A stretch of DNA of 64,000 nt from contig NZ_CP139148.1 in NCBI RefSeq assembly GCF_034058155.1, positions 744,001-808,000 on the forward strand, read 5' to 3'. Position 1 is the stretch's first letter. Each line of letters starts with the position of its first letter. Position numbers and translations under genes: made by a program. Positions 10,029 to 24,478 of the stretch are shown here, one piece after another. The notes beneath the pieces were generated by a model that saw nothing but the letters and a program-made list of their open reading frames with translations, made no database searches and had not been told where the DNA came from. Source of the DNA: Flavobacterium sp. KACC 22761. GTDB lineage: Bacteria > Bacteroidota > Bacteroidia > Flavobacteriales > Flavobacteriaceae.

Positions 10029-10895
10029 ATGGAAACAGTCATTGAAAATATACCAACTGGAAAACCTAAATGGTTAAAGGTGAAACTTCCAATTGGACAA
10101 AAATATACTGAACTTCGTGGTTTAGTTGATAAATACAGCTTAAATACCATTTGCACCTCTGGAAGTTGCCCAAATATGGGAGAATGTTGGGGTGAAGGAA
10201 CCGCAACTTTTATGATTCTTGGAAATGTTTGCACTCGTTCATGCGGATTTTGTGGCGTAAAAACAGGAAGACCTGAAACTGTTGATTGGGACGAACCTGA
10301 AAAAGTAGCGCGTTCTATAAAAATCATGAACATCAAACACGCTGTAATTACAAGCGTTGACAGAGATGACTTGAAAGATGGCGGATCTATTATCTGGATT
10401 GAAACGGTAAAAGCAATCCGAAGAATGAACCCAAATACTACACTAGAAACTTTAATTCCGGATTTTCAAGGAATTGAAAGAAATATAGACCGAATCGTTG
10501 AAGCAAATCCTGAAGTGGTTTCGCATAATGTTGAAACGGTTCGCCGATTGACACGTGAAGTTCGTATTCAAGCAAAATACGATCGCAGTCTTGAAGTTTT
10601 GCGCTATTTAAAAGAAAAAGGAATCAACAGAACCAAATCTGGTATCATGCTAGGTCTTGGCGAAACTGAAGAAGAAGTTTTTCAGACTATGAGAGATTTG
10701 CGCAATGCAAATGTAGATGTTGTTACTATTGGACAATACCTTCAACCAAGTAAAAAACATTTGCCTGTCAAAGAATTTATCACTCCGGAGCAATTTGCGA
10801 GATACGAAAAATTCGGACTTGAATTAGGTTTCCGCCATGTGGAGAGCGGTCCTTTAGTTCGTTCTTCATACAAAGCACAAAAACACATTTTATAA
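10029..10895 (+). CDS. lipA: Lipoyl synthase LipA
   Basis: Radical-SAM enzyme that inserts two sulfurs into octanoyl-lipoyl domains to make the lipoyl cofactor of 2-oxoacid dehydrogenases and the glycine cleavage system. It has 288 residues. Both iron-sulfur clusters are intact: the auxiliary cluster cysteines C42, C47 and C53 in [12 protein letters not shown], and the radical-SAM CxxxCxxC cysteines C68, C72 and C75 in CTRSCGFC. The C-terminal RSSY motif ([12 protein letters not shown]), which ligates the auxiliary cluster, is also present. It is probably co-transcribed with gap 75 bp downstream, across a palindromic spacer. Confidence 0.97.
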
Positions 10896-10901
10896 TAAAA
10901 G

Positions 10902-11993: not shown

Positions 11994-14168
11994 ATGAAAT
12001 ACCACATTCTTATTCTTATTTGTTTTTTAAATTCATTTTTGTATTCTCAAACCAAAAAGAATACAGATAGCGTTTCCTATTACAATAAATTAGCCAACTC
12101 AAATCTCGATAAACAAAAGTACACACAGGCCGTTTTTTACACCAAAAAATCTATTGATTTTTGCCAAACCAATAATAAAACCGAAAATTTAGCCAATCAG
12201 ACTTTCAAGCTCGGGAAAATTTATTACAACCAGCAAAAATATGATGAAGCACTAAAAAACTTCCACAAAAGCGTTTCATTATTTGACAAAGTAAAACCAA
12301 CTTGTACTAAAATTTTGGCACTTCATTATATTGGAGCCTCAAACACTGCACAGGGAAATTTTGAAATTGGCAATATCTATTACAAAAAAGCCGACAGTTT
12401 ATTAAAAAAACTAAAACTTGTTGATCATGCTGAAATTTTGGATTACCAAAAGGCGATGGCGTTAAAAATTGGTAAAAATCTACCGCTTTCAGCAAAAACT
12501 TTTCAAAAAATAGTAAGCAAACCAGACAATCCAAAAATAATCAAAACCAAGGCTGATTCCTATTATCAGCTTGGACTGATCGAAACAATACTGAAAAGAA
12601 ATGATTCGGCTTTAGTTCATTTTGACAACGCTTTAGATTATAGTGCCAAAAACAACAACTTGGCTCAAAAATCAAAAATTATACTTGCGATTAGCCAGTA
12701 CTACAAAAAGAATCGAAATTTTGATCTTGCCTATTCCTATCTCGATGAGCATTATCAAATCGAAAACTATATTTTAAAACTGAAAAATGCAAAATTGGAT
12801 TTCAATGATTTTGAGAAATTCAAAAAAACACAATCTATAAACAATACGCTGAAACGCGAAAGTGATCAAAAAATCCAGCTAAAAACCTACCGTTACTCTA
12901 AATTAGTGAGTATTTTGGCAATCGCATTAATTTCGATTTTATCGCTTTTGAGTTTGGCTTTATACAAAAACAACATTATTCGAAATCAGAATAATTTGCT
13001 TTTAAGAGAAAAAAACAAAGAATTGATTCTTGCTAAAAACAAAGCAGAAAAAGCATCAAAAGCCAGATCTGAATTTTTGTCGACAGTAAGCCATGAACTC
13101 CGGACACCATTGAATGCGATCAACGGAATTACGCATTTACTTTTGGAAGACAATCCAAAAAAGAATCAGCTAAAATACTTGGAATCTTTGAAATTTTCAG
13201 GCAACTATTTGACTACATTTATCAATGAGATTTTGGAAATCAATAAAATCGACTCCACAAAAGTCGAAGTTGAATACATCAGTTTCAATTTAAAAGAACT
13301 TTTATTCAATATTCAAAGTTCGCTTAAAGAATTGGCTACAGCCAATAAAAACTATTTCAATCTTGAAATCGACGAAGCTATTCCTGATAATTTGATTGGA
13401 GACCCAACAAAATTATCTCAAATAATACTTAATTTAATCAACAACGCTTTAAAATTTACCCAAAACGGACATGTAAATGTAATTGCAAAATTGTATGCAA
13501 TTGAAGAAGAAAATGCAACCGTTTATTTTGAAATTGTTGATACAGGAATTGGAATTCCAGAAGACAAACTACAAACTGTTTTTGAAAGTTTTTCACAAGG
13601 TTCTATTGAAGTAAACCGCAAATATGGTGGAACCGGCTTAGGCTTGACTATTGTAAAAAAACTAATTGAGCTCCTTGGAGGCGAAATAAAACTTAAAAGC
13701 GAGGTGGGCAAAGGGTCAACTTTTACCTTTAAGCTGAATTTCAATATTAACACCGAGCCATTGGAGGTTGTCGAAGAAACCACCAAACTATACAGTGATA
13801 CACAATTAGAGCATAAATCGATCTTATTGATTGAAGACAATAAAATCAATCAGATGATTACGCGTAAAATGCTGGAAAACAAAGCAATTTCTTGCGAAAT
13901 AATCGATAATGGCGAAGAAGCTGTCGAACTTTTAAAAGTAAAGCGTTTTGATATGGTTTTAATGGATGTTCATTTGCCTGGCATTAACGGAACAACTGCC
14001 ACAAAAATGATTCGAGAGTTTGACAAAACGACTCCAATTATTGCTTTGACTGCAATTTCGCTTGACGAAAACAGAGACATGCTTTTATCTTTTGGAATGA
14101 ATGACGTGATTACAAAACCGTTTGTTCCAGATGAATTTTATAGCACAATTGCCAAGTTTTTTGATTAA
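11994..14168 (+). CDS. TPR-containing hybrid sensor histidine kinase/response regulator
   Basis: Two-component hybrid of 724 residues. From ATG 11994: a signal peptide (1-20), periplasmic tetratricopeptide repeats over about residues 30-255, one membrane helix at about 301-323, a short coiled coil, and a HisKA domain with the phospho-acceptor His367 in STVSHELRTPLNAINGI. The HATPase domain follows (NNALKFTQNGH, DTGIGIP, GGTGLGLTIVKKL), then a C-terminal receiver domain with ILLIEDNKINQ, the phospho-acceptor Asp658 in VLMDVHLPG, and ITKPF. An upstream TTG at 11985 is possible but less likely. No output regulator is encoded alongside, so the final target is unknown. It follows gap by 25 bp and may be in its transcript. 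Confidence 0.93.
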   Translation: MKYHILILICFLNSFLYSQTKKNTDSVSYYNKLANSNLDKQKYTQAVFYTKKSIDFCQTNNKTENLANQTFKLGKIYYNQQKYDEALKNFHKSVSLFDKVKPTCTKILALHYIGASNTAQGNFEIGNIYYKKADSLLKKLKLVDHAEILDYQKAMALKIGKNLPLSAKTFQKIVSKPDNPKIIKTKADSYYQLGLIETILKRNDSALVHFDNALDYSAKNNNLAQKSKIILAISQYYKKNRNFDLAYSYLDEHYQIENYILKLKNAKLDFNDFEKFKKTQSINNTLKRESDQKIQLKTYRYSKLVSILAIALISILSLLSLALYKNNIIRNQNNLLLREKNKELILAKNKAEKASKARSEFLSTVSHELRTPLNAINGITHLLLEDNPKKNQLKYLESLKFSGNYLTTFINEILEINKIDSTKVEVEYISFNLKELLFNIQSSLKELATANKNYFNLEIDEAIPDNLIGDPTKLSQIILNLINNALKFTQNGHVNVIAKLYAIEEENATVYFEIVDTGIGIPEDKLQTVFESFSQGSIEVNRKYGGTGLGLTIVKKLIELLGGEIKLKSEVGKGSTFTFKLNFNINTEPLEVVEETTKLYSDTQLEHKSILLIEDNKINQMITRKMLENKAISCEIIDNGEEAVELLKVKRFDMVLMDVHLPGINGTTATKMIREFDKTTPIIALTAISLDENRDMLLSFGMNDVITKPFVPDEFYSTIAKFFD

Positions 14169-14184
14169 CTAAGATGCTAAGTTT

Positions 14185-15207
14185 TTAAGAAACTAAACTA
14201 CTTTTTATGTACTCCAAAATTGTCGCATCAAAATTTTGCTGATGGTTTATAAAAGTGCTTTTTATTGGCAAATAATACAATTGAGAAACCAATTTTGAAT
14301 CCTTCAAACGCACATAATCTTTCTCGGTTGTAATTATTTTTCTTCCTTTTGCTTTTTCTTGAATCGATTCTAAATCAGCATCAGAAAAATGATGATGATC
14401 AGGAAAAGTCAGGCATTCGTCATTTTCATTTTTTAAATAATCAAAAAATGGTTTCGGTTTTGCAATACCCGCTAAAAGCACTTTAGATTTGGGCTTAATT
14501 TTAGCAACCTCAACTTTTTCATTTTGCCCATAAATTACCTCATCATAATCTATAAAAGTAAAAAAGATTTGTTGCGAACAGCTTAATTTTAGTTTTAAAC
14601 GAATTTCGGCTTGTTCTTCTTCAGATAAAATTTTAGGGCATTTTGTCACCACAACAACATTGGCTCTCGTTGCGCCGCTCCTGCTTTCGCGCAAATTCCC
14701 TGTTGGCAGCATAAAATCATCTACATACAAATCATCGTATGCGCTTAATAAAATATAAAAACCGGCTTTTACTTTTCTGTGCTGATAAGCGTCGTCTAGC
14801 AATACGATTTCTGGCTTTTCTTTCTGCGAAAGCAACTGCTGAATTCCATTTGTGCGATTGGCGTCAACTGCCACCATTACATTTGGAAATTTTTGATAAA
14901 ACTGGAAAGGTTCATCGCCAAGAATTTCGGCAGTAACATTCTCATCGGCTAAAACAAAACCTTCTGATTTTCTTTTATAGCCACGACTTAAAGTTGCGAT
15001 TTTATATTTATCAGTTAATAACCGAATCAAATATTCAATTTGAGGCGTTTTTCCGGTTCCGCCCACACTTAAATTGCCAACAGCAATTACAGGAATATCA
15101 AATGAAGTCGATTTTAAGATTCCTTTGTCAAAAAGAAAATTACGGATTGAAGTTATGAATCCATATATAATAGCGAAAGGGAAAAGTAATTTTCGGAGTA
15201 ATTTCAT
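14185..15207 (-). CDS. lpxK: Tetraacyldisaccharide 4'-kinase LpxK
   Basis: Phosphorylates the 4'-position of the lipid A disaccharide-1-phosphate at the inner membrane, forming lipid IVA. It has 340 residues. The amphipathic N-terminus (LLRKLLFPFAIIYGFITSIR) is typical, as is the unusual Walker A AVGNLSVGGTGKTPQIEYL. Other marks are ATLSRGYKRKSEGFVLADE, LGDEPFQFYQKFPNVMVAVD, VLLDDAYQHRKV and the late FPDHHHFSDADL and TTEKDYVRL motifs. It is convergent with the upstream histidine kinase and has no other lipid A gene nearby. Confidence 0.95.
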   Translation of the reverse strand: MKLLRKLLFPFAIIYGFITSIRNFLFDKGILKSTSFDIPVIAVGNLSVGGTGKTPQIEYLIRLLTDKYKIATLSRGYKRKSEGFVLADENVTAEILGDEPFQFYQKFPNVMVAVDANRTNGIQQLLSQKEKPEIVLLDDAYQHRKVKAGFYILLSAYDDLYVDDFMLPTGNLRESRSGATRANVVVVTKCPKILSEEEQAEIRLKLKLSCSQQIFFTFIDYDEVIYGQNEKVEVAKIKPKSKVLLAGIAKPKPFFDYLKNENDECLTFPDHHHFSDADLESIQEKAKGRKIITTEKDYVRLKDSKLVSQLYYLPIKSTFINHQQNFDATILEYIKSSLVS

Positions 15208-15634
15208 TTTACGAAAGTATAATTTTTTTGTGCTATTAATAGAAATTGCTAAAATAAAAAAAATGGCAAAATTGTAAGTAAAAAAGCTTGCTTTAATTTT
15301 TCAAAAAGGCCAACAAACACAAGAGCTCACAAAGGAAAATCTGTACTATTTTTCTCAAATACAAACAAAAAAGAGGCATTTTGGCACTTAAAAATACGAT
15401 AATTCTCATTTTATCATTAATAACATTTTATGATAGCTAAGAAATTAATCCTTAGCTTCTTTCATAAAAACTTAAAAAATTGTCAGAAAAAAATATAAAA
15501 ACAAAAAATTATTATACTATTTTTAGAACGAATTTTCTTTAAACAATTTAAAACCCCAAGTGCACGTGGCAAAGTTTTAATGGCAAGAAATCAAAAAACC
15601 TAAAAACATTTATTAATATCAAAAATCGTAAAAG
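15208..15634. other. AT-rich intergenic region before the lanthipeptide precursor
   Basis: About 430 bp without a supportable gene. It separates divergently transcribed lpxK from the lanthipeptide locus and must contain the precursor promoter, but I find no clean TTG-N19-TAnnTTTG match. The nearest candidates are imperfect (for example TACTATTTTT near 15520). It contains long A and T runs. Confidence 0.6.
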
Positions 15635-15793
15635 ATGAAAAAATTAAAATTAGAGAACTTAAAAGTTAAAACTCTAACTAAAGAAGAACAAAAAACTGTT
15701 AAAGGAGGTCTAGAACAAGAGTTTTTATCTATTGGAGTTACGTGCAGTTTAAGAAATTCTTGCGAAAGAGTTTGCGGACCAATAATTGCTTAA
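15635..15793 (+). CDS. Class I lanthipeptide precursor (LanA-like)
   Basis: Ribosomally made precursor of 52 residues. The leader (residues 1-25) is Lys/Leu-rich (MKKLKLENLKVKTLTKEEQ) and ends in a Gly24-Gly25 cleavage-type motif; this is the leader style of Bacteroidota class I lanthipeptides. The 27-residue core holds three Cys (37, 43, 47), three Ser (32, 38, 42) and one Thr (36). Each Ser lies exactly five residues before a Cys: Ser32-Cys37, Ser38-Cys43, Ser42-Cys47. This would suit LanB dehydration and LanC ring closure, genes that follow immediately. The ring assignment is inference. A hairpin terminator lies 54 bp after the stop. Confidence 0.85.
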   Translation: MKKLKLENLKVKTLTKEEQKTVKGGLEQEFLSIGVTCSLRNSCERVCGPIIA

Positions 15794-15847
15794 TAAAAAA
15801 TATTTTAGCATTTAGAATAGTTATCTAATAACTGTTCCAACTCACAC

Positions 15848-15882
15848 AAGGGCTATCCATTACAGATAGCCTTTGGTTTTTA
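15848..15882 (+). terminator. Terminator/attenuator between precursor and modification genes
   Basis: GGCTATC (15851-15857) and GATAGCC (15865-15871) form a perfect stem. The outer AAG/TTT bases extend it through a G-U pair, and TTTGGTTTTTATT follows. It ends most transcripts after the precursor, and partial read-through would feed the enzymes downstream. A smaller hairpin, AGTTAT/ATAACT, lies at 15819-15833. Confidence 0.75.
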
Positions 15883-15934
15883 TTCTTCCAAACCAGCTTA
15901 TTTAAGTGAATTCTGATTAGAAAACTAATAGATC

Positions 15935-18421
15935 ATGAAATTTTTTTTTACGTTATGTTGCATTTTACTTTTAAATTTTACTTTTTCACAAAATATAATA
16001 CCAGGCAAATATTCTACAATCAATAATAGCAACTACACTTTTTTAGACACAATTCTTAAAAATAAAAAAATCGTTTTATTGGGAGAGCAATCTCATGGCG
16101 ACGGGGCTACTTTTGATGAAAAAGTAAATCTCATAAAGTATTTGCATGAAAAACAGAAATACAATAGTATTGTTTTTGAAAGTGGAATGTATGATCAATA
16201 CAAAGCATTTCAAGAATATTCCAAAAAAAAGACTTCAATAGCAGTTTTCGACCAGAGTATCTTAGATATATGGTCTGATACCAAAGCATTTCAAAATTTG
16301 CTTCTTTATATTGAAGAATGCGCCCAAAAAAAAGATACTATAAAAATCTTAGGATTTGATACTCAAGAAGGAGTGTTTTTTTCGAATCATTTTATGAGTG
16401 ATCTCACTGAATTGATTAAAAACAGAAAAATCAATATTGCAAAAAATAGCTTGACAAGAATAGAAAAAGCTTTTGTTTTTAGAGATTTGGAGCGCATTGC
16501 CAATAACAAAAAAGATTCTACTGATTTGTATCAGGATTTTCATTTTCTAGTAAATGCTCTGAAAGAAATAAAAGACCCGACTTTTCATGAAAAAATGATG
16601 AAACAGGTTATTATTAGCAAAATTTCGGATGTCGATTTTGAAATCATGCAATTACAAAACCAAAAAATTGCGGTTCAAAATCCAAGAGACGAGCAAATGG
16701 CAAAAAATTTGATTTTCTTATCTGAAATGTATCCAAATGAAAAAATGATTTGCTGGGGAGCTTCATATCATTTTTCAAAAAACATCGACCAAACAGAATA
16801 TACTGAAGTCACTGAAAGCTATTTACAAAAGCAATCGAATATTGAACTTAAAACTACTGGTTTTACAGATTATATTCCCGGCGAAGGAGCGAAACTCCTT
16901 GAAGGCGCTTTACCAATGGGTGGCTTTTTAAAGAATTATTTTAAGGATGAAATTTATAGTATTGCGTTTTCTTCTTATGAAGGCTCATATGGACGCGTAG
17001 ATGGCAAATCGTTCCCTATTCTTACTCCTCCTGAAAATAGCATCGAATTACAAAATGCAAACAAGGGCTATAATAAAACTTTTTTCGAATTTGACAAGAA
17101 AGACACGAAGCGATATTATTGCTCCGCATTTGGAAACATTCCTATAAAAGCGAGATGGAATGCTATTTTTGATGGCTTTTTTTTCATTAAAAAATCATAT
17201 CAGCCTGAAGCAAGATTTTTTGAAAAAGAAAACTATGTACCAACCCTAAAAGATGCATTTGTACTAAATGGAAAAATAAATGATTTTAAAAATCATAAAA
17301 TCATAGCAAATGCCGACATCATAATGCTTCAAACAAATAAAAGCATTCTAGCAAATAAAGAAGGTGCATTTTCTATCATTGTAGATAAAGCCAAATTTAA
17401 CAACAAAATTATTGTATCGGCTTTTGGGTATATTTCAGATACGATTTCAATTAAAAATCTTGTTGATGCCAATAAACATTTTATAAAGGTAAAATTAAGA
17501 CCATTTCAATTTCAAGCTATTAATTTAAATGAAGTTGTGATAAATTCAAACTCAAAATTATTATCTGCAGAAGAAATCGTAGCAAAAGCTCAGCTCAATA
17601 TTGAACTTAATTACAATCAAAATCCTTACAATCAAACATTTTTCTTTCGCAATCAAGTGATCAAAAACAATGAGGTTATTTCGCAGGACGAATCAATTAT
17701 AACGACTTATAATTCAATGGGAATGAAAGGCGTCAATAATCCTGATGAAAAAATATTTGGAGAAATATTGCAAACTCGTGAAATTGTAAAAAACACTTCA
17801 CAAAATAAACTCGGCAGTATGAACACTTTTGCATTTTTGTTTGATCGTGACCTTATATTAAGCAAAGCCAATGTACTTTATAAACCGGAATCCTATACTT
17901 TAAAAAAAGAAGGCATTGTCCCTTATAATGACCAGAAAGTTTATAAAATAAGTTTTCAAAACAATGAACCTGGAGCTTATTCTACTGGTTATGGTTATCC
18001 GGCACCAAAAAAATCATCGGGCGTTTTATATATAGACACACAAACATTTGCCATATTAAAATATGAACATTGTGTGGCGAGAGAACCGTTTGAAGTAAAA
18101 AGCCAAGCGGGCAAAACTGCCCAAATGAATCATAAAATCACAATAACGTATAAATTATCAGAAGGAAAATATTTTATCAATTATCTAAATGTAATAGACA
18201 AATCAATCATCACCTCAACAGCTGACAATTCTTTTTTATACGACACTTATAATGTCAACAACTTAATGTCTACGGAAGTAAAAACAACAAATACTCAAAA
18301 ACTTAATCGACCACTTTTAAAAATTGGTTTAAATAATACTGTTCAGGAAAATTTAGACTTTTGGAAAAATAATAGTTTTATCCTACCTGATGAAAAAATC
18401 ATTTTCGATTTATGTTATTAA
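15935..18421 (+). CDS. Secreted erythromycin-esterase-like protein fused to a carboxypeptidase-regulatory-like region
   Basis: 828 residues with a signal peptide (1-19), so it acts in the periplasm or at the outer membrane. Residues about 40-320 look like the erythromycin-esterase superfamily: LLGEQSHGDG gives Glu51 and His54, FESG gives Glu82, and WGASYH at 274-279 adds a histidine. This spacing is what I recall for EreB active-site residues (E43, H46, E74). From about 443 a beta-sandwich of the carboxypeptidase-regulatory type follows, and the last 300 residues resemble the region after such domains in Bacteroidota surface proteins. Its end overlaps or nearly abuts lanC, so it belongs to the lanthipeptide operon. 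It may process, modify or protect against the peptide; none of this can be decided from sequence. Confidence 0.75.
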   Translation: MKFFFTLCCILLLNFTFSQNIIPGKYSTINNSNYTFLDTILKNKKIVLLGEQSHGDGATFDEKVNLIKYLHEKQKYNSIVFESGMYDQYKAFQEYSKKKTSIAVFDQSILDIWSDTKAFQNLLLYIEECAQKKDTIKILGFDTQEGVFFSNHFMSDLTELIKNRKINIAKNSLTRIEKAFVFRDLERIANNKKDSTDLYQDFHFLVNALKEIKDPTFHEKMMKQVIISKISDVDFEIMQLQNQKIAVQNPRDEQMAKNLIFLSEMYPNEKMICWGASYHFSKNIDQTEYTEVTESYLQKQSNIELKTTGFTDYIPGEGAKLLEGALPMGGFLKNYFKDEIYSIAFSSYEGSYGRVDGKSFPILTPPENSIELQNANKGYNKTFFEFDKKDTKRYYCSAFGNIPIKARWNAIFDGFFFIKKSYQPEARFFEKENYVPTLKDAFVLNGKINDFKNHKIIANADIIMLQTNKSILANKEGAFSIIVDKAKFNNKIIVSAFGYISDTISIKNLVDANKHFIKVKLRPFQFQAINLNEVVINSNSKLLSAEEIVAKAQLNIELNYNQNPYNQTFFFRNQVIKNNEVISQDESIITTYNSMGMKGVNNPDEKIFGEILQTREIVKNTSQNKLGSMNTFAFLFDRDLILSKANVLYKPESYTLKKEGIVPYNDQKVYKISFQNNEPGAYSTGYGYPAPKKSSGVLYIDTQTFAILKYEHCVAREPFEVKSQAGKTAQMNHKITITYKLSEGKYFINYLNVIDKSIITSTADNSFLYDTYNVNNLMSTEVKTTNTQKLNRPLLKIGLNNTVQENLDFWKNNSFILPDEKIIFDLCY

Positions 18422-18441
18422 CGAAAAATCAGCAAAAGAGC

Positions 18442-19596
18442 ATGAATCCTATAATTACAAGAATAGAAGAAAAAATATGGCAATCTGTTGAAACAGAAAA
18501 AAGAATAGGTGCTCTGGATGGTCTGTCTGGAATTGCTTTATTTTATAATTATCTGCTGGAGATTGAATATCAGGAGGAATATCAAAATAAATTGTTTACG
18601 ATAATTGACAAAATTGGCGATCTAATTTCTGAAGAAAGCTACAATTCATCTTTATGCTCCGGAATAGCTGGATATGCTTGGGTTTTAGCAAAAATGAAAA
18701 ACAAAAACCTAGAAATTGAAGAAGATTATTTTGAAGCACTAGATGCTCTTTTAGAAGAAAGTCTGACCGAAGAAGCTAACAAGAATTATTATGATTTTTT
18801 GCACGGCGCATTTGGCATCGCTTTATATTTTATAGAACGATATAAAACTACAAAGAACAAAGACATCGAACATATTTTAGTCCAGTTTTCAAATAATCTG
18901 ATAGACAAAATAAAGAACAATCCGAAAGACCTATTTTTAAGCAACTCTGAAAAACCAAATCTTAAATGCTATTATTTTGGCTTAGCACATGGTATATCGG
19001 GCATTCTAAATTTTCTGATTCATCTTCAAACAAATCTTGACAAAAATAGTCCAGATGTTCATACGGCAATTTATACCATAATTGAATTCATGGATACTTT
19101 TAAAATTTTTGATGAGGAATCTAAACAATATTATCCAAGTCAAATTTTTGAAGATAACTTATCTGTTACAAAAGCGCGACTTGGCTGGTGTCAGGGCGAT
19201 TTAGGCATAGCAAATGCAATTCTTAATTCAGGATTATTTTTAAACAATTCAAACATACAAGAAGAAGCTGTTGCCTTAATCGATTCAACTAGAAAAATAA
19301 AAGTAAAAGAATCTTTAGCAAACGATTTTGCGATTTGTCATGGTTCAGCTGGCATAATATTGCAATATTATTTAGCCATGGCAAAAACAAAAGTACCAAC
19401 TACGGATACAATGATGATTTGGCATGAAAATCTAAAAAAACAAACTAATGATTTTTCAGATTTTAAAAGTTTTTTTATTGATAAATACATAAATGAAACC
19501 AATATTTTGAACGGCGCCGCAGGTCTTGGACTTGCATTATTGACAATAGAAAACAAAATCCAATCAGACTGGACCGAATGTTTAAATTTATATTAG
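18442..19596 (+). CDS. lanC: LanC-like lanthionine synthetase (cyclase)
   Basis: Zinc enzyme that adds Cys thiols to dehydrated Ser/Thr to close lanthionine rings. From ATG 18442 it has 384 residues, a usual LanC length. The repeated Gly-rich toroid motifs are seen (GALDGLSGIALFYNY, CSGIAGYAW, HGAFGIALYF, NGAAGLGLA). The zinc ligands are intact: Cys250 in GWCQGDLG and Cys299-His300 in ICHGSAG; the general acid/base His183 is in LAHGISG. An alternative ATG at 18412 adds ten residues and would overlap the upstream esterase-like gene by 10 bp. I prefer 18442 because the conserved sequence starts there (MNPIITRIEEKIW). It is followed 68 bp later by lanB. Confidence 0.92.
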   Translation: MNPIITRIEEKIWQSVETEKRIGALDGLSGIALFYNYLLEIEYQEEYQNKLFTIIDKIGDLISEESYNSSLCSGIAGYAWVLAKMKNKNLEIEEDYFEALDALLEESLTEEANKNYYDFLHGAFGIALYFIERYKTTKNKDIEHILVQFSNNLIDKIKNNPKDLFLSNSEKPNLKCYYFGLAHGISGILNFLIHLQTNLDKNSPDVHTAIYTIIEFMDTFKIFDEESKQYYPSQIFEDNLSVTKARLGWCQGDLGIANAILNSGLFLNNSNIQEEAVALIDSTRKIKVKESLANDFAICHGSAGIILQYYLAMAKTKVPTTDTMMIWHENLKKQTNDFSDFKSFFIDKYINETNILNGAAGLGLALLTIENKIQSDWTECLNLY

Positions 19597-19664
19597 AGAC
19601 TTTTCTATCCAAATTCAAAAACCAAACCGTGCATTCCATTTAATAGCCAAAACAAAATTTTAAA

Positions 19665-22517
19665 ATGAAGTTTTTTAATACCATTATCAAAAGAACTGCG
19701 TCATTCCCTATTGAATCTTATACTGAAAACCGCAATAATATTAAGGCGTTTTTTTTCAACAATGATTTATTTCAATTATCTATTTTATTCGCTTCAAGAA
19801 GTTTATATAACGATGTTAAAAAAAACAAATCAGGCAAAACCAATCTTTCGCTAAACAAATATTTCTCGAGAGCTCATTTTAACCCAATTCCGTTCGGACT
19901 TTTTACCAGTGTTGGTTCTTCTGAATGGCGCGACAAAACGGTTTTATTAAAATCAAAACTTTTAGAACTTAAAGTAGAATTTGACAATTTATATATTTCT
20001 GAAAAAACCAACCTTATAAACGCTGAAGAGTGGAAACAATATAGGTATTTTACAAATCCTTCCGTTCACTTTTTAAGTCCGGAAAAAATTAGTTTTTATA
20101 AATCTCAAAAATTACCCATTGGATCTTATGAAACAAAATATGTAGAGCTCGATTATGACGAAGATATTCAGTGGCTGCTTGACCGATTCAAAAACGGAAC
20201 TAGCATTAAAGATGTGACTAATGATTTACTTGAAAATGAATTCTCATTATCAGAAATTGATGCCTTTTTATTAGAAATTATTAGTGCCGGACTTATCATT
20301 AACGAAGTAACATTTCATCCCTATCGAGAAACAATCTATAAAAACTCGGTTCCTTCGACATTAATAAATCTTAGTACATATAAATTAGAATCAAAAAATG
20401 ATTTCGATTACTTTACGACAAATTATATAGCAGAACAAGATATTTATTTGTCTGAAGAAGGAATACAAAGTAGTTACTCCCATTCTATTTCATTATTTGA
20501 AAAAGAATCCGATTATTTAGATTCTAAAATTCAAGAAAAACTATTCAAATACATCCAATTTAATGTAAATTATAATAGCGATTATACACCAATTACAAAT
20601 TCAGTATTAGAATTTGGCAATAAATTTTATCATAGTTTTAGCGACGGCTACATTCCTTTGAGCAAAGTATTTAATCCTTACTCAGGATTAAAATATAGTA
20701 CAACTGAATTCAAAAATGAGAACAAACTTCATTCGGATATATTATCGCAAATTTTGACCGCGTCCTCAAAAGAAGTTCTTCTTAAAAATGTAAAAACATC
20801 CATAAAAAGCAAAAACCAATTACCGGCAACTTTCAATGTTATTTTCGAAATATTGAATTGCAAAATTACCGGAAAAGAAATTGTGTATTGCAAATCAGTG
20901 ACTGGAACTTCTGCAATAAACCTATTATCAAGATTCAATCACATTTCTGAAGCTGCATGTCAAGATATTGCAAATTTTGAAAAAGAAATCTATAAGGATA
21001 AAATCATTGCCGAAATAAACATGATTGCCAAACCACGAGCTACAAATATTATTTCCTCTCATCAATATTACGATTATAATATTCCTATAAATACGGCACA
21101 TTCAGAAAATTCAAACCCAATTTACTTAGCTGATCTTTATTTGCGTTTTAATGGATCTGGCTTTGTTCTAGTTTCTAAAAAACATCAGAAAGAAATAATT
21201 CCCCGAGTAACATCAGCGATAAACAATGGGTTATCTGATTCTGAAGCGCATCGATTTTTGGCAGATTTACAGTCACAAAATAATGAAATTCATCATATAA
21301 ACTTCAATCTAAATTATTACAAGAATTTTTATTTACCCTATGTTCCTAGAATTTATCTTGATGATGATCTTTTACTATATCCGGCGCAACTTTTAGTGGC
21401 AAACAACAATTATACTTTTGAGCAGTTTAAAAAAGTGTTATTTGAAAATGTAGAAAAAAATGATTTTTCTAAAAGAGTTTCTTTAACAGATAAAAAAGGA
21501 GAGATCATTATCGATATTGAAAATGACGAGCATTTGGAAATTTTGTTTTCCAGATTTAGCACATCTAATACTTTCTATATTTCAGAATCATTGTATGAAT
21601 CTTTTTTTCCTGCAATATCTTCTAACGAGAAACATCATGCTCATGAATTTGTGGCAAGTATCAAAAACACCGAATTTACATCTGTAAAAAACACTTTTAA
21701 AATCCCTGAGGAAGATAATTTTGAAACCGTAAATGTTCCAGTATTATCAAATTGGTTATACTTGGATTTAACCTGTAATCCTTATGCCCAAAATGATTTG
21801 CTGACCATTATTTATGATGCAATTTTATCTGAGGAAACAGTCGATCAATTCTTTTATGTAAGATATAATTATCCCGAAAATCACTTAAGAGTAAGGTTTA
21901 AAACAGAATCCAAAAAATTAAAAGAACATATTATCAGTGAAATCAACAATCTGAAAACTAAAAATTTCATTCTTACTTACAAAATCTTGCCCTATGAACC
22001 AGAAACTTATAGATACGGCGGAAAAGAATTATTAAACGTAACTGAATCAATTTTTAGCAAAGACAGCTTCGACACCATTCAAAATATTCTAAAAACAGAA
22101 CCAAATGACGAAAAAATAATTTGTTTTTCAGTCTTAAAAATACAGTACTATTTTAGTCTTTTTGGCTTCACTTTAGATCAAATGATCATGCTCTGCGATG
22201 CCAATATTGAAAGTTTTTCAAATGAATTTACTTTATCGGCAACTTTAAGGAAAGAACTCAATCAAAAGTTTTCAGTCGTAAAAAATAAATTCGACGATAT
22301 AATTTATGCTAATTTTCTTAACGACGAAAGTTTAAAATCAACCCTGAAAAGTCATTTAGAAAAAAGTGATTTAATTAGATCTAATTATGCTGCCGATTTG
22401 ATTCATATGAGTCTCAATCGCCTTTTTGATAAAGAGCAACGCTACAATGAATTTAAAAGTTATTATTGGGCAAAGCTTTACTTCAACAGACTAAAGTTTA
22501 CAAAAAATGCCAATTAA
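19665..22517 (+). CDS. lanB: LanB-type lantibiotic dehydratase
   Basis: tRNA-Glu-dependent dehydratase that glutamylates Ser/Thr of the precursor and eliminates glutamate to leave Dha/Dhb. It is full length at 950 residues. The N-terminal glutamylation domain opens with KRTASFPIESY and has the conserved SRAHFNPIPFGLFTSVGS around residues 66-85. The C-terminal elimination domain (SpaB_C/thiopeptide-type) starts near residue 690 with SNWLYLDLTCNPYAQNDLL, continues with FFYVRYNYPENHLRVRF and contains EPETYRYGG. The two domains are fused, as in class I systems, not split as in many thiopeptide loci. It is the last gene of the locus, since the next gene has its own promoter. Confidence 0.93.
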   Translation: MKFFNTIIKRTASFPIESYTENRNNIKAFFFNNDLFQLSILFASRSLYNDVKKNKSGKTNLSLNKYFSRAHFNPIPFGLFTSVGSSEWRDKTVLLKSKLLELKVEFDNLYISEKTNLINAEEWKQYRYFTNPSVHFLSPEKISFYKSQKLPIGSYETKYVELDYDEDIQWLLDRFKNGTSIKDVTNDLLENEFSLSEIDAFLLEIISAGLIINEVTFHPYRETIYKNSVPSTLINLSTYKLESKNDFDYFTTNYIAEQDIYLSEEGIQSSYSHSISLFEKESDYLDSKIQEKLFKYIQFNVNYNSDYTPITNSVLEFGNKFYHSFSDGYIPLSKVFNPYSGLKYSTTEFKNENKLHSDILSQILTASSKEVLLKNVKTSIKSKNQLPATFNVIFEILNCKITGKEIVYCKSVTGTSAINLLSRFNHISEAACQDIANFEKEIYKDKIIAEINMIAKPRATNIISSHQYYDYNIPINTAHSENSNPIYLADLYLRFNGSGFVLVSKKHQKEIIPRVTSAINNGLSDSEAHRFLADLQSQNNEIHHINFNLNYYKNFYLPYVPRIYLDDDLLLYPAQLLVANNNYTFEQFKKVLFENVEKNDFSKRVSLTDKKGEIIIDIENDEHLEILFSRFSTSNTFYISESLYESFFPAISSNEKHHAHEFVASIKNTEFTSVKNTFKIPEEDNFETVNVPVLSNWLYLDLTCNPYAQNDLLTIIYDAILSEETVDQFFYVRYNYPENHLRVRFKTESKKLKEHIISEINNLKTKNFILTYKILPYEPETYRYGGKELLNVTESIFSKDSFDTIQNILKTEPNDEKIICFSVLKIQYYFSLFGFTLDQMIMLCDANIESFSNEFTLSATLRKELNQKFSVVKNKFDDIIYANFLNDESLKSTLKSHLEKSDLIRSNYAADLIHMSLNRLFDKEQRYNEFKSYYWAKLYFNRLKFTKNAN

Positions 22518-22541
22518 CAGCAATCGACATCGTTTCCTTGA

Positions 22542-22572
22542 TTGTAATAGTTTAGAATTTGGATTACTTTTG
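22542..22572 (+). promoter_or_regulatory. Promoter for the Nif3-like gene
   Basis: TTG at 22542-22544, a 20-bp spacer and TACTTTTG at 22565-22572, 28 bp before the ATG. It separates the housekeeping genes downstream from the lanthipeptide operon. Confidence 0.7.
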
Positions 22573-22600
22573 TTGTTCACCTTAACTTTTTGAAACACGA

Positions 22601-23695
22601 ATGAAAATTAAAGAAATAATAGCGGTTCTTGAAGAAATGTCACCTTTGGCTTACGCCGAGGATTTTGACAACGTTGGGCTTTTAGTTGGCAATTCGGAAG
22701 CCGAAAGTACTGGCGTTTTAGTTTGCCATGATGCCTTAGAAAATGTAATGGATGAAGCTATCTCTAAAAACTGTAATTTGGTAGTTTGTTTTCATCCGAT
22801 ATTATTTTCTGGAATTAAAAAAATTACAGGCAAGAATTATGTAGAGCGCGCGATTTTAAAAGCAATTAAAAATGATATTGCCATTTATGCCGTTCATACT
22901 GCACTTGATAATCATTCGGCCGGCGTTAATAAAATTTTCTGCGATGCATTAGGTTTGACAAATACCAAAGTTTTGATTCCGAAACAAAATTTCATTCAAA
23001 AATTAGTAACTTATACCGTTCCAGAAAACGCTCAAAAAGTACGTCAAGCATTATTTGATGCTGGCGCTGGAACAATTGGAAATTATGACAATTGCAGTTT
23101 CAACTCGAATGGAATTGGCACATACAAAGGAAATTCTGAAAGCAATCCGGTAATTGGTGAGCGTTTTGAATTAACAGAAACCGAAGAGATCAAAATCGAA
23201 GTTACGTTTGAAAAACATCTTCAATCCCGAATTTTAAAAGCACTTTTTGCAAATCATATTTATGAAGAAGTGGCATACGAGATTTATAATCTTGAAAATT
23301 CGCATCAGAATATAGGTTTGGGAATGATTGGCGAATTTGAAAATGAAATGAATGAAAAAGAATTTCTTCATTTTGTAAAAAATAAAATGATTGCAGATGG
23401 AATTCGCCATTCTGCTTTTTTAGGAAAAAAAATCAAGAAAGTAGCTGTACTTGGAGGTTCAGGAAGTTTTGCTATAAAAAATGCAATTCAAGCTGGAGCC
23501 GATGCTTTTTTGACTGCCGACTTAAAATATCACCAGTTTTATGAAGCCGAAAACAAGTTACTTTTGGCAGATATTGGTCATTTTGAGAGCGAACGCTATA
23601 CAAAAAATTATATTGTTGATTATCTTCGAAAAAAAATTCTTAATTTTGCAATCATTTTATCGGAAGAAAATACAAATCCAGTTAAGTACTTATAA
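22601..23695 (+). CDS. Nif3-like dinuclear metal centre protein
   Basis: Member of the Nif3/YbgI (DUF34) family, a hexameric ring protein with a two-metal site, 364 residues. That length indicates the long form with an inserted PII-like domain (about residues 120-235). Metal-binding motifs are visible: CFHPILFSGIKK, AVHTALDNHSAGVN and, at the C-terminus, LKYHQFYEAENKLLLADIGH followed by FESE. The family's reaction is not settled; GTP cyclohydrolase-like and cofactor-repair roles have been proposed. The stop is four bases from the next start, so the two form an operon, a pairing common in Bacteroidota. Confidence 0.93.
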   Translation: MKIKEIIAVLEEMSPLAYAEDFDNVGLLVGNSEAESTGVLVCHDALENVMDEAISKNCNLVVCFHPILFSGIKKITGKNYVERAILKAIKNDIAIYAVHTALDNHSAGVNKIFCDALGLTNTKVLIPKQNFIQKLVTYTVPENAQKVRQALFDAGAGTIGNYDNCSFNSNGIGTYKGNSESNPVIGERFELTETEEIKIEVTFEKHLQSRILKALFANHIYEEVAYEIYNLENSHQNIGLGMIGEFENEMNEKEFLHFVKNKMIADGIRHSAFLGKKIKKVAVLGGSGSFAIKNAIQAGADAFLTADLKYHQFYEAENKLLLADIGHFESERYTKNYIVDYLRKKILNFAIILSEENTNPVKYL

Positions 23696-23698
23696 AAT

Positions 23699-24478
23699 AT
23701 GACGAATACGAAAGAATTAAGTGTTGAGGACAAGTTAAGAGCAATATACGATTTACAGCTTATTGACTCTAGAATTGACGAAATCAGAAACGTTAGAGGA
23801 GAACTTCCTTTAGAGGTTGAAGATTTAGAAGATGAAGTTGCAGGTTTGAGCACTCGTTCAGAGAAACTGAAAGGTGAACTTGAAGTGATTGAGGAGCAAA
23901 TCAAAGCAAAGAAAATTGCTATTGAGGAGCATAAAGAGGTTATTAAAAAGTACACTAAACAACAAGAATCAGTACGTAACAACAGAGAATTTAATTCTTT
24001 GACAAAAGAAGTTGAATTTCAAGAATTAGAAATTCAATTGGCTGAAAAGCAAATCAAAGAAATGAAAGCTTCAATCGAGCACAAAAAAGAAGTTATTTCT
24101 AACTTAAAAGAAAAACTTGATGCTAAAAGCTCTCATTTAAAACATAAAAAATCTGAATTAGACGCTATTATGGCTGAAACTCAGAAAGAAGAGGCTTTCT
24201 TGACTGAAAAATCTGCTGAATATGCTGCACAAATCGAAGATAGATTATTAGCAGCTTACAACAGAATCAGAAGCAGTGTTCGTAACGGATTGGCTGTAGT
24301 ATCTATCGAAAGAGGAGCTTCTGCTGGATCTTTCTTTACAATTCCACCTCAAACTCAGGTTGAAATTGCTTCAAGAAAGAAAATCATTACTGATGAGCAC
24401 TCTGGAAGAATTTTAGTTGACACACAGTTAGCTGAAGAAGAAAAAGAAAAAATGGAACAATTGTTCGCAAAATTCTAA
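23699..24478 (+). CDS. Coiled-coil protein of the C4 zinc-ribbon family lacking the cysteines
   Basis: 259 residues. A long Glu/Lys-rich antiparallel coiled coil (about residues 30-180) is followed by the C-terminal domain that in most relatives is a C4 zinc ribbon. The framework is recognisable: RNGLAVVSIERGASAGSFFT, IPPQTQVEI and HSGRILVDTQLA. The positions where CxxC pairs are expected hold Ala-Gly-Ser and Ser-Gly, and the whole protein has no cysteine. It cannot bind zinc in the classical way. The adjacent Nif3-like gene, four bases upstream, is the usual partner. Function is unknown. Confidence 0.88.
   Translation: MTNTKELSVEDKLRAIYDLQLIDSRIDEIRNVRGELPLEVEDLEDEVAGLSTRSEKLKGELEVIEEQIKAKKIAIEEHKEVIKKYTKQQESVRNNREFNSLTKEVEFQELEIQLAEKQIKEMKASIEHKKEVISNLKEKLDAKSSHLKHKKSELDAIMAETQKEEAFLTEKSAEYAAQIEDRLLAAYNRIRSSVRNGLAVVSIERGASAGSFFTIPPQTQVEIASRKKIITDEHSGRILVDTQLAEEEKEKMEQLFAKF

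Follow-up and report, generated by a model that had tools for sequence, protein, structure and literature searches.

We describe a class I lanthipeptide operon of Flavobacterium sp. KACC 22761 in which a gene for a secreted hydrolase resembling the erythromycin esterases (Ere) is located between the precursor gene (lanA) and the cyclase gene (lanC). Because close relatives have lost the peptide-making genes yet kept Ere, the protein may protect cells, and immunity against the producer's own lanthipeptide, which would be a new way of such immunity, is a reading to which we give slightly less than an even chance. The operon is part of a 64,000-nt stretch, here called the window, of NZ_CP139148.1 (assembly GCF_034058155.1), positions 744,001 to 808,000, and coordinates given without a locus refer to it.

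The operon and its encoded proteins

A first-pass annotation of the window had described a locus of four genes, and each of them was found in its place on the plus strand. The operon is flanked 5' by a gene on the opposite strand (14185-15207), which we take to be lpxK-like, and 3' by a presumably Nif3-like gene (22601-23695). The features are as follows.

15520-15543, plus strand: conserved block TTTTTAGAACGAATTTTCTTT..., 5' of lanA, likely part of the promoter region
15635-15793, plus strand: lanthipeptide precursor gene (lanA), 52 aa, GG leader; homologues precede Ere in L011, L113, L114 and L119
15847-15875, plus strand: terminator-like hairpin in the lanA/Ere gap, 11-pair stem followed by a T run
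15935-18421, plus strand: Ere-like hydrolase fused to transthyretin-like and LolA-like domains, 828 aa (Pfam, predicted structure)
15974-17218, plus strand: Ere/succinoglycan-biosynthesis hydrolase fold, residues 14-428
17252-17518, plus strand: transthyretin-like (CarboxypepD_reg) domain, residues 440-528
17555-18340, plus strand: LolA/LolB/LprG-like domain, residues 541-802
18412-19596, plus strand: LanC cyclase, 394 aa (PF05147, 159.5 bits; NisC alignment)
19665-22517, plus strand: full-length LanB dehydratase, 950 aa (PF04738, 145.2; PF14028, 136.8; alignments with 9g04 and 5ehk)
22488-22517, plus strand: 3' end of lanB, whose counterpart is the deletion scar in four orphan species (local alignment)

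The assignment to class I was borne out by LanB and LanC with their motifs and by a precursor with a GG leader. Both the glutamylation and the elimination domains of LanB were found (PF04738 and PF14028, above cut-off), and the D, H, C and CH motifs of LanC were retained in the alignment with NisC, which thus has the zinc ligands and catalytic His of the class. LanB retained the N-terminal PxPFGLF and the C-terminal RY..HLRVRF and RYGG motifs when aligned with PDB 9g04 and 5ehk, and the IHM..NR motif when aligned with 9g04; the roles of these LanC and LanB residues (zinc ligands, catalytic His and others) are those that we presume them to have. None of the motifs compared was missing, and the zinc-binding LanC and full-length LanB of the annotation therefore keep what is expected of active enzymes. 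No second copy of LanC, LanB or PF05139 was found in the 5.04-Mb genome (search at E 0.001). The Ere-like gene had been said to overlap or abut lanC; its stop overlaps the annotated LanC start by 10 nt, and an alternative LanC start lies 30 nt downstream.

The precursor has the leader and the Ser/Thr- and Cys-containing core required of class I: the core, LEQEFLSIGVTCSLRNSCERVCGPIIA, follows the GG-ended leader and contains 3 Cys, 3 Ser and 1 Thr. Since only 3 Ser and 1 Thr are present, at most four waters can be lost from it, the same maximum as had been predicted. By eye, the leader resembles the Bacteroidetes LxLxKx5L motif of PMC7268733, with Asn at the position of Lys. The block at 15520-15543 is nearly invariant and stands before lanA in the window, L011 and L113 and before Ere in the four orphan species described below; it is likely to belong to the promoter region. 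Around it, positions 15467-15553 aligned to L008, L009 and L012 with 87-89% identity. The hairpin between lanA and Ere (-16.1 kcal/mol, z -5.9) has a comparable counterpart between precursor and Ere in L011, L113, L114 and L119, and hence in 5/5 full-cluster loci with the window included; it probably acts as an attenuator. Rfam gave zero matches in 14000-24000 of the window.

The Ere-like protein was matched by PF05139 (46.6 bits, cut-off 26.4) and PF13715 (33.4, cut-off 32.2), and its structure was modelled with a pLDDT of 88.3. The carboxypeptidase-regulatory-like C-terminus that had been reported is present as PF13715; as a description of the C-terminus it was incomplete, since the stretch spanning residues 541-802 resembles folds of the LolA/LprG type, with modest Z scores. 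The N-terminus is signal-peptide-like by hydropathy, and inspection by eye showed no lipobox; the earlier view of the gene as Ere-like, secreted and unusual was right. The predicted active site consists of E51, H54, E82, R251 and H279, corresponding to E47, H50, E78, R261 and H289 of EreC; the first three were assigned by alignment, and R251 and H279 by motif and spacing, without residue-level superposition. A loss of the catalytic His was considered and rejected: Ala at 276 is misleading, and the residue that corresponds to H289 of the EreC study is H279, which is present. Among homologues, these residues were kept in 69/69, 68/69, 69/69, 69/69 and 68/69 sequences, respectively. The protein thus has the profile score above gathering, the Ere fold and the active-site residues of the PF05139 superfamily. 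It had no match to PF03572 (S41 peptidase), and the EreA model NF000208 scored 12 against a cut-off of 750.

The window operon contains no exporter gene; the genome has five genes for C39 peptidases, all of them at other sites. An island at about 1.89 Mb of the same genome (L220, G000:C1:1887000-1899000) carries several GG-leader peptides, a C39 ABC exporter, HlyD and an S41 peptidase, adjoins what we take to be rpsP and rimM, and may export the window precursor in trans. In Bacteroidota lanthipeptide clusters, C39 proteases are often linked, as stated in PMC7268733. The window has LanB, LanC and a GG leader with an LxLx-type motif in common with the class I clusters of this phylum, of which pinensin is the characterised case, and differs from them in its single full-length LanB, its exporter-free operon and the secreted Ere-like gene between precursor and LanC. 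The pinensin leader model NF038180 scored 15.1 bits with the window precursor, below its cut-off of 24, and the single 950-aa LanB contrasts with the split LanB of the pinensin family.

Retention of the Ere-like gene without lan genes

In four sister species (L008, L009, L010 and L012), the orphan species, with F. sharifuzzamanii and F. tagetis among them, the match to the window runs to just past the Ere stop and then resumes at the lanB tail (22488-22517). The score of this lanB-tail alignment was reached by 0/1000 shuffles, which preserve base composition only, in each of the four. On the 5' side, the block at about 15520-15543 is kept, lanA is absent and the match is back just before the Ere start. 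The lanA-Ere hairpin was not found 5' of Ere in the orphans by the scan used for the full clusters, and no LanC was found in searches of the four genomes.

In the Ere tree, the four orphans formed a clade (92/91), and the window plus the four formed another (100/100). The cluster occupies the same site in L011 and L113; since these lan-bearing loci fell just outside the latter clade, loss of the lan genes is the simpler reading. The dN/dS of Ere was 0.10-0.14 among the four orphans, at a dS of 0.25-0.54. Comparison of three producers with one another gave 0.08-0.09, and pairs of an orphan and a producer gave 0.08-0.12, dS being saturated at larger distances. Ere is thus kept under selection beside the old lanA upstream block with the peptide genes gone. 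One would expect this of a gene that confers immunity or resistance, but not of one that serves maturation alone; it is from this retention that the role in immunity is drawn.

A role in maturation, in which Ere, like S41 in sister loci, would trim the exported peptide after leader removal by C39, for example in the stretch before FLSI or the tail past the last Cys, appears somewhat unlikely. Ere does adjoin the precursor, and the variable segments of the peptide, from GG to the FLS motif and past the last Cys, could be trimmed; it is nevertheless under purifying selection in four species where the site lacks a precursor and a search of the genome found no LanC.

The genomic contexts of Ere relatives were read at all places of the Ere matches in the genus (E 1e-20) and in 8 regions of the family search, with L111, L112 and L120 dropped as repeats of L008, L009 and L011. 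The linkage counts leave out homologues with protein-search evidence alone, such as F. psychrophilum P0023, and some stretches are short owing to contig ends (L124, 3.4 kb). The order lanA-Ere-lanC was common to five loci (the window, L011, L113, L114 and L119), with Ere overlapping lanC or a tight gap between them; the linkage on which the first-pass annotation depended is therefore kept in relatives. The full-length form of Ere stood beside lanBC in 5/16 loci and apart in 11/16, including the four deletion cases. Shorter forms (700-810 aa) stood beside lanBC in 2/23 loci and apart in 21/23, and single-domain forms stood beside it in 0/7. As most of the relatives read stand away from lanBC, Ere may have an older function in the envelope or in resistance. 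When 248 relatives were searched further for Ere, only previously known genomes were returned.

The annotation's proposal of an undescribed lanthipeptide subfamily fits less well, given that Ere persists without biosynthesis genes in four sister species and that most of its relatives are unlinked. Not being bound to biosynthesis, Ere is better described as one among several secreted hydrolases (S41, alpha/beta hydrolase, Ere) borne by these clusters than as the mark of a separate subfamily.

Standalone relatives that keep the active site adjoin unrelated genes, to judge from the names that we presume for the neighbours, in L104, L105, L115 and L116. They would suit an independent envelope enzyme, that is, a periplasmic hydrolase of Flavobacteriaceae with its own role that lies by chance in some lan operons. 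We regard this as unlikely, since Ere sits between lanA and lanC with coding that is tight or overlapping, and since it occurs in each of two LanC clades and is replaced by other hydrolases in sister clusters. A further point against it comes from L103 of genome G050, which belongs to another genus: a precursor-like ORF (10731-10898), with one Cys left in its core, lies directly 5' of Ere, and a LanC search of the genome gave no match. This ORF is a candidate for a decaying precursor or for one with another use. By tblastn, no lanC or lanB remnants were found at E below 0.1 by the other orphan Ere genes (L103-L105, L115-L118).

Hydrolases of related lanthipeptide clusters

A total of 75 loci with LanC or LanB were collected, 74 of them distinct. 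To count as class I, a locus had to have both LanB (over 150 aa) and LanC as a standalone protein (300-500 aa); 19 loci, namely those with LanM-like or lone LanC together with L169 and L181 (no LanB found), were left out. This gave 55 class I loci, of which 46 are from the genus and 9 from outside it. The excluded L169 has S41, precursor and LanC. Labels for S41, alpha/beta hydrolase and exporter were assigned using small local HMMs (E 1e-5), with 8/16 S41 or alpha/beta loci checked by Pfam, and secretion of the S41 and alpha/beta proteins was judged by hydropathy only. L210 and L212, with S41 on the opposite strand, were counted as having none.

Among the 55 class I loci, 12 carried S41, 7 Ere, 4 an alpha/beta hydrolase and 32 none of the three. 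All 23 hydrolase-positive loci belong to the genus, with none among the 9 outside, and two kinds of hydrolase within 5 kb on the same strand were seen in 0/55. In the LanC tree, the clade of the window (100/100; 12 loci) contained 6 loci with S41, 5 with Ere, 1 with neither and 0 with both, whereas the second Ere clade (100/100; 5 loci) contained 3 with alpha/beta hydrolase and 2 with shorter Ere. With 5 Ere and 6 S41 loci among 12, zero overlap has a chance of 6/792, a rough figure as the members are related. Over the 55 loci, 0 S41-Ere pairs were seen against 1.5 expected, with a chance of about 0.16 (hand arithmetic, rough because the loci are related). The S41/Ere contrast is therefore clear only inside the window's clade, whose members are related, and over the 55 loci it could be due to chance.

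The sister clusters with the same LanC and 950-aa LanB and without Ere encode, near the precursor, a protein about 550 aa long whose N-terminus is signal-peptide-like and which was identified by Pfam as Peptidase_S41 in 6/6 tested. Its gene lies between precursor and LanC in L147, L171, L175 and L177, and 5' of the precursor in L166 and L179. The S41 gene of L165, L178 and L185 lies between LanC and LanB. The short Ere of the second clade lies between LanB and precursor. Near L121 and L122, split-LanB clusters carry the alpha/beta hydrolase, between precursor and LanC in L191 and before LanB in L176 and L189. It is from gene position that we take Ere to do what the S41 and alpha/beta hydrolases do. 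The alternation with a peptidase family in the window's clade, and the S41 genes found in C39-HlyD export islands with GG peptides, would also suit the maturation reading.

Precursors adjacent to Ere have LS[IL]..C or a close variant in common. The core of L191, FLSVYSCRASRSGNDCC, which belongs to a hydrolase locus, and that of L122, FLSIVSCRASNSGWDCC, which belongs to an Ere locus, agree at 13/17 residues from FLS to CC. The FLS motif was considered as a recognition element for Ere and rejected; because FLSVYSC occurs in L191, which carries an alpha/beta hydrolase but lacks Ere, the motif was assigned to the core family. The same FLS-type core without Ere counts against trimming by Ere in maturation.

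One place with both S41 and Ere was seen, L117:6732-11094, where an S41 gene is followed by an adjacent fused Ere-LolA-like gene, with no lan genes, next to what we take to be rpsP and rimM. Strict mutual exclusion of S41 and Ere as a law is ruled out by this locus, and it holds for the 55 class I loci. A suspected S41 partner of Ere in L119 was dismissed, the 570-aa gene there encoding TPR plus HTH_18.

In 8 genomes of the genus, a separate gene also encodes a protein that resembles the Ere C-terminus, comprising CarboxypepD and the LolA-like half. In 5/8 (L130, L149, L150, L215 and L217) it follows directly after S41 in a C39-HlyD-S41 island, again adjoining genes that are presumably rpsP and rimM; L129 and L216 lack S41, and the L121 copy lies inside an Ere cluster. 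As the module gene follows S41 elsewhere, the C-terminal module pairs with S41 as a neighbour or with Ere as a fusion.

Other observations were made at these loci. The S41-LanC-LanB-C39 cluster of L147 is preceded by an array (12186-16241) of 14 ORFs that resemble class I precursors and end alike (SGPYVSWCHGC and variants). In the second Ere-lanthipeptide locus of F. cupreum, the gene that separates LanB from the C39 exporter (L119:3381-4544) encodes a JmjC_2/cupin protein, possibly a hydroxylating tailoring enzyme. A CarboxypepD_reg_2 protein of 287 aa (L167:10262-11125) is encoded between LanB and LanC of another class I locus and adds a further small protein of envelope type to the operon.

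Proposed role and relation to known systems

In the mechanism that we propose, LanB would dehydrate up to four Ser/Thr of the core and LanC would close up to three thioether rings, giving a class I lanthipeptide, whose GG leader would be cut during export by a C39-type exporter encoded elsewhere. The Ere-like protein would act in the periplasm after its secretion: there the LolA-like domain would capture the hydrophobic peptide or hold the enzyme near the envelope, and the Ere-fold active site would hydrolyse a bond in the peptide and make the producer immune. The mode of action would parallel that of the S41 nisin-resistance protein, with an unrelated catalytic fold. On genomic grounds, we tentatively put forward, at somewhat less than an even chance, a new immunity class in which an Ere-fold hydrolase with a LolA-like carrier would bind and cut the lanthipeptide in the periplasm, alternate with S41 and alpha/beta hydrolases, and persist as an immunity-only gene after loss of the toxin genes.

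Several points count against immunity. The characterised Ere enzymes hydrolyse macrolide esters, we know of no immunity proteins among the S41 proteins of the sister clusters, 32/55 class I loci have none of the three hydrolases, and the position of the hydrolase varies between loci. LanB chemistry forms glutamyl esters. Esters are hydrolysed by Ere enzymes (PMC7979712), so that Ere could be thought to act in tailoring, by opening a lactone or ester of the product, for instance glutamyl esters that LanB has left behind. This is very improbable: the protein appears to be secreted whereas LanB works in the cytoplasm, the S41 peptidases of sister clusters are not esterases, and Ere is retained in the orphan species.

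For the immunity reading, the closest parallel is the nisin-resistance protein NSR (S41), which, like the proposed role of Ere, involves extracytoplasmic hydrolysis of a lanthipeptide, and whose family replaces Ere in sister clusters. It is described in PMC4828448 as disarming nisin by removing its last six residues, and the Ere/S41 alternation fits peptide hydrolysis because NSR cleaves nisin. The two differ in fold and active site, and the S41 domain of NSR-type proteins (PF03572) is lacking in the Ere-like protein. EreA/EreC and B. cereus BcR135/BcR136 share their fold with the Ere-like protein, as well as the active-site set E, H, E, R, H. The Ere-like protein is 14-19% identical to them over the fold and is set apart by a signal-peptide-like start, two extra domains and its setting in a lanthipeptide operon. 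NisI resembles it in being extracytoplasmic, encoded in the producer operon and in its proposed binding of peptide; according to PMC4828448, NisI is a two-domain lipoprotein without enzyme activity, while the Ere-like protein joins a LolA-like domain to a hydrolase and shows no lipobox by eye. At two gammaproteobacterial graspetide loci presented in PMC8939145, an Ere homologue lies by a RiPP precursor with a double-glycine peptidase, and modification or resistance was proposed; these are ATP-grasp systems of another phylum, likened here by description and not by sequence. No description of an Ere-like protein in a lanthipeptide cluster was found in the open-access literature, the word 'esterase' being absent from the main text of the lanthipeptide survey PMC7268733, and none of self-protection in Bacteroidota lanthipeptide producers was found in the literature searched.

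The window and its relatives amount to a natural deletion experiment, with three hydrolase families for comparison. If ribosomal peptides are disarmed by enzymes of the Ere fold, it would be misleading to take Flavobacteriia genes labelled 'erythromycin esterase' for macrolide resistance, and the standalone Ere relatives could be resistance genes against the lanthipeptides of neighbours.
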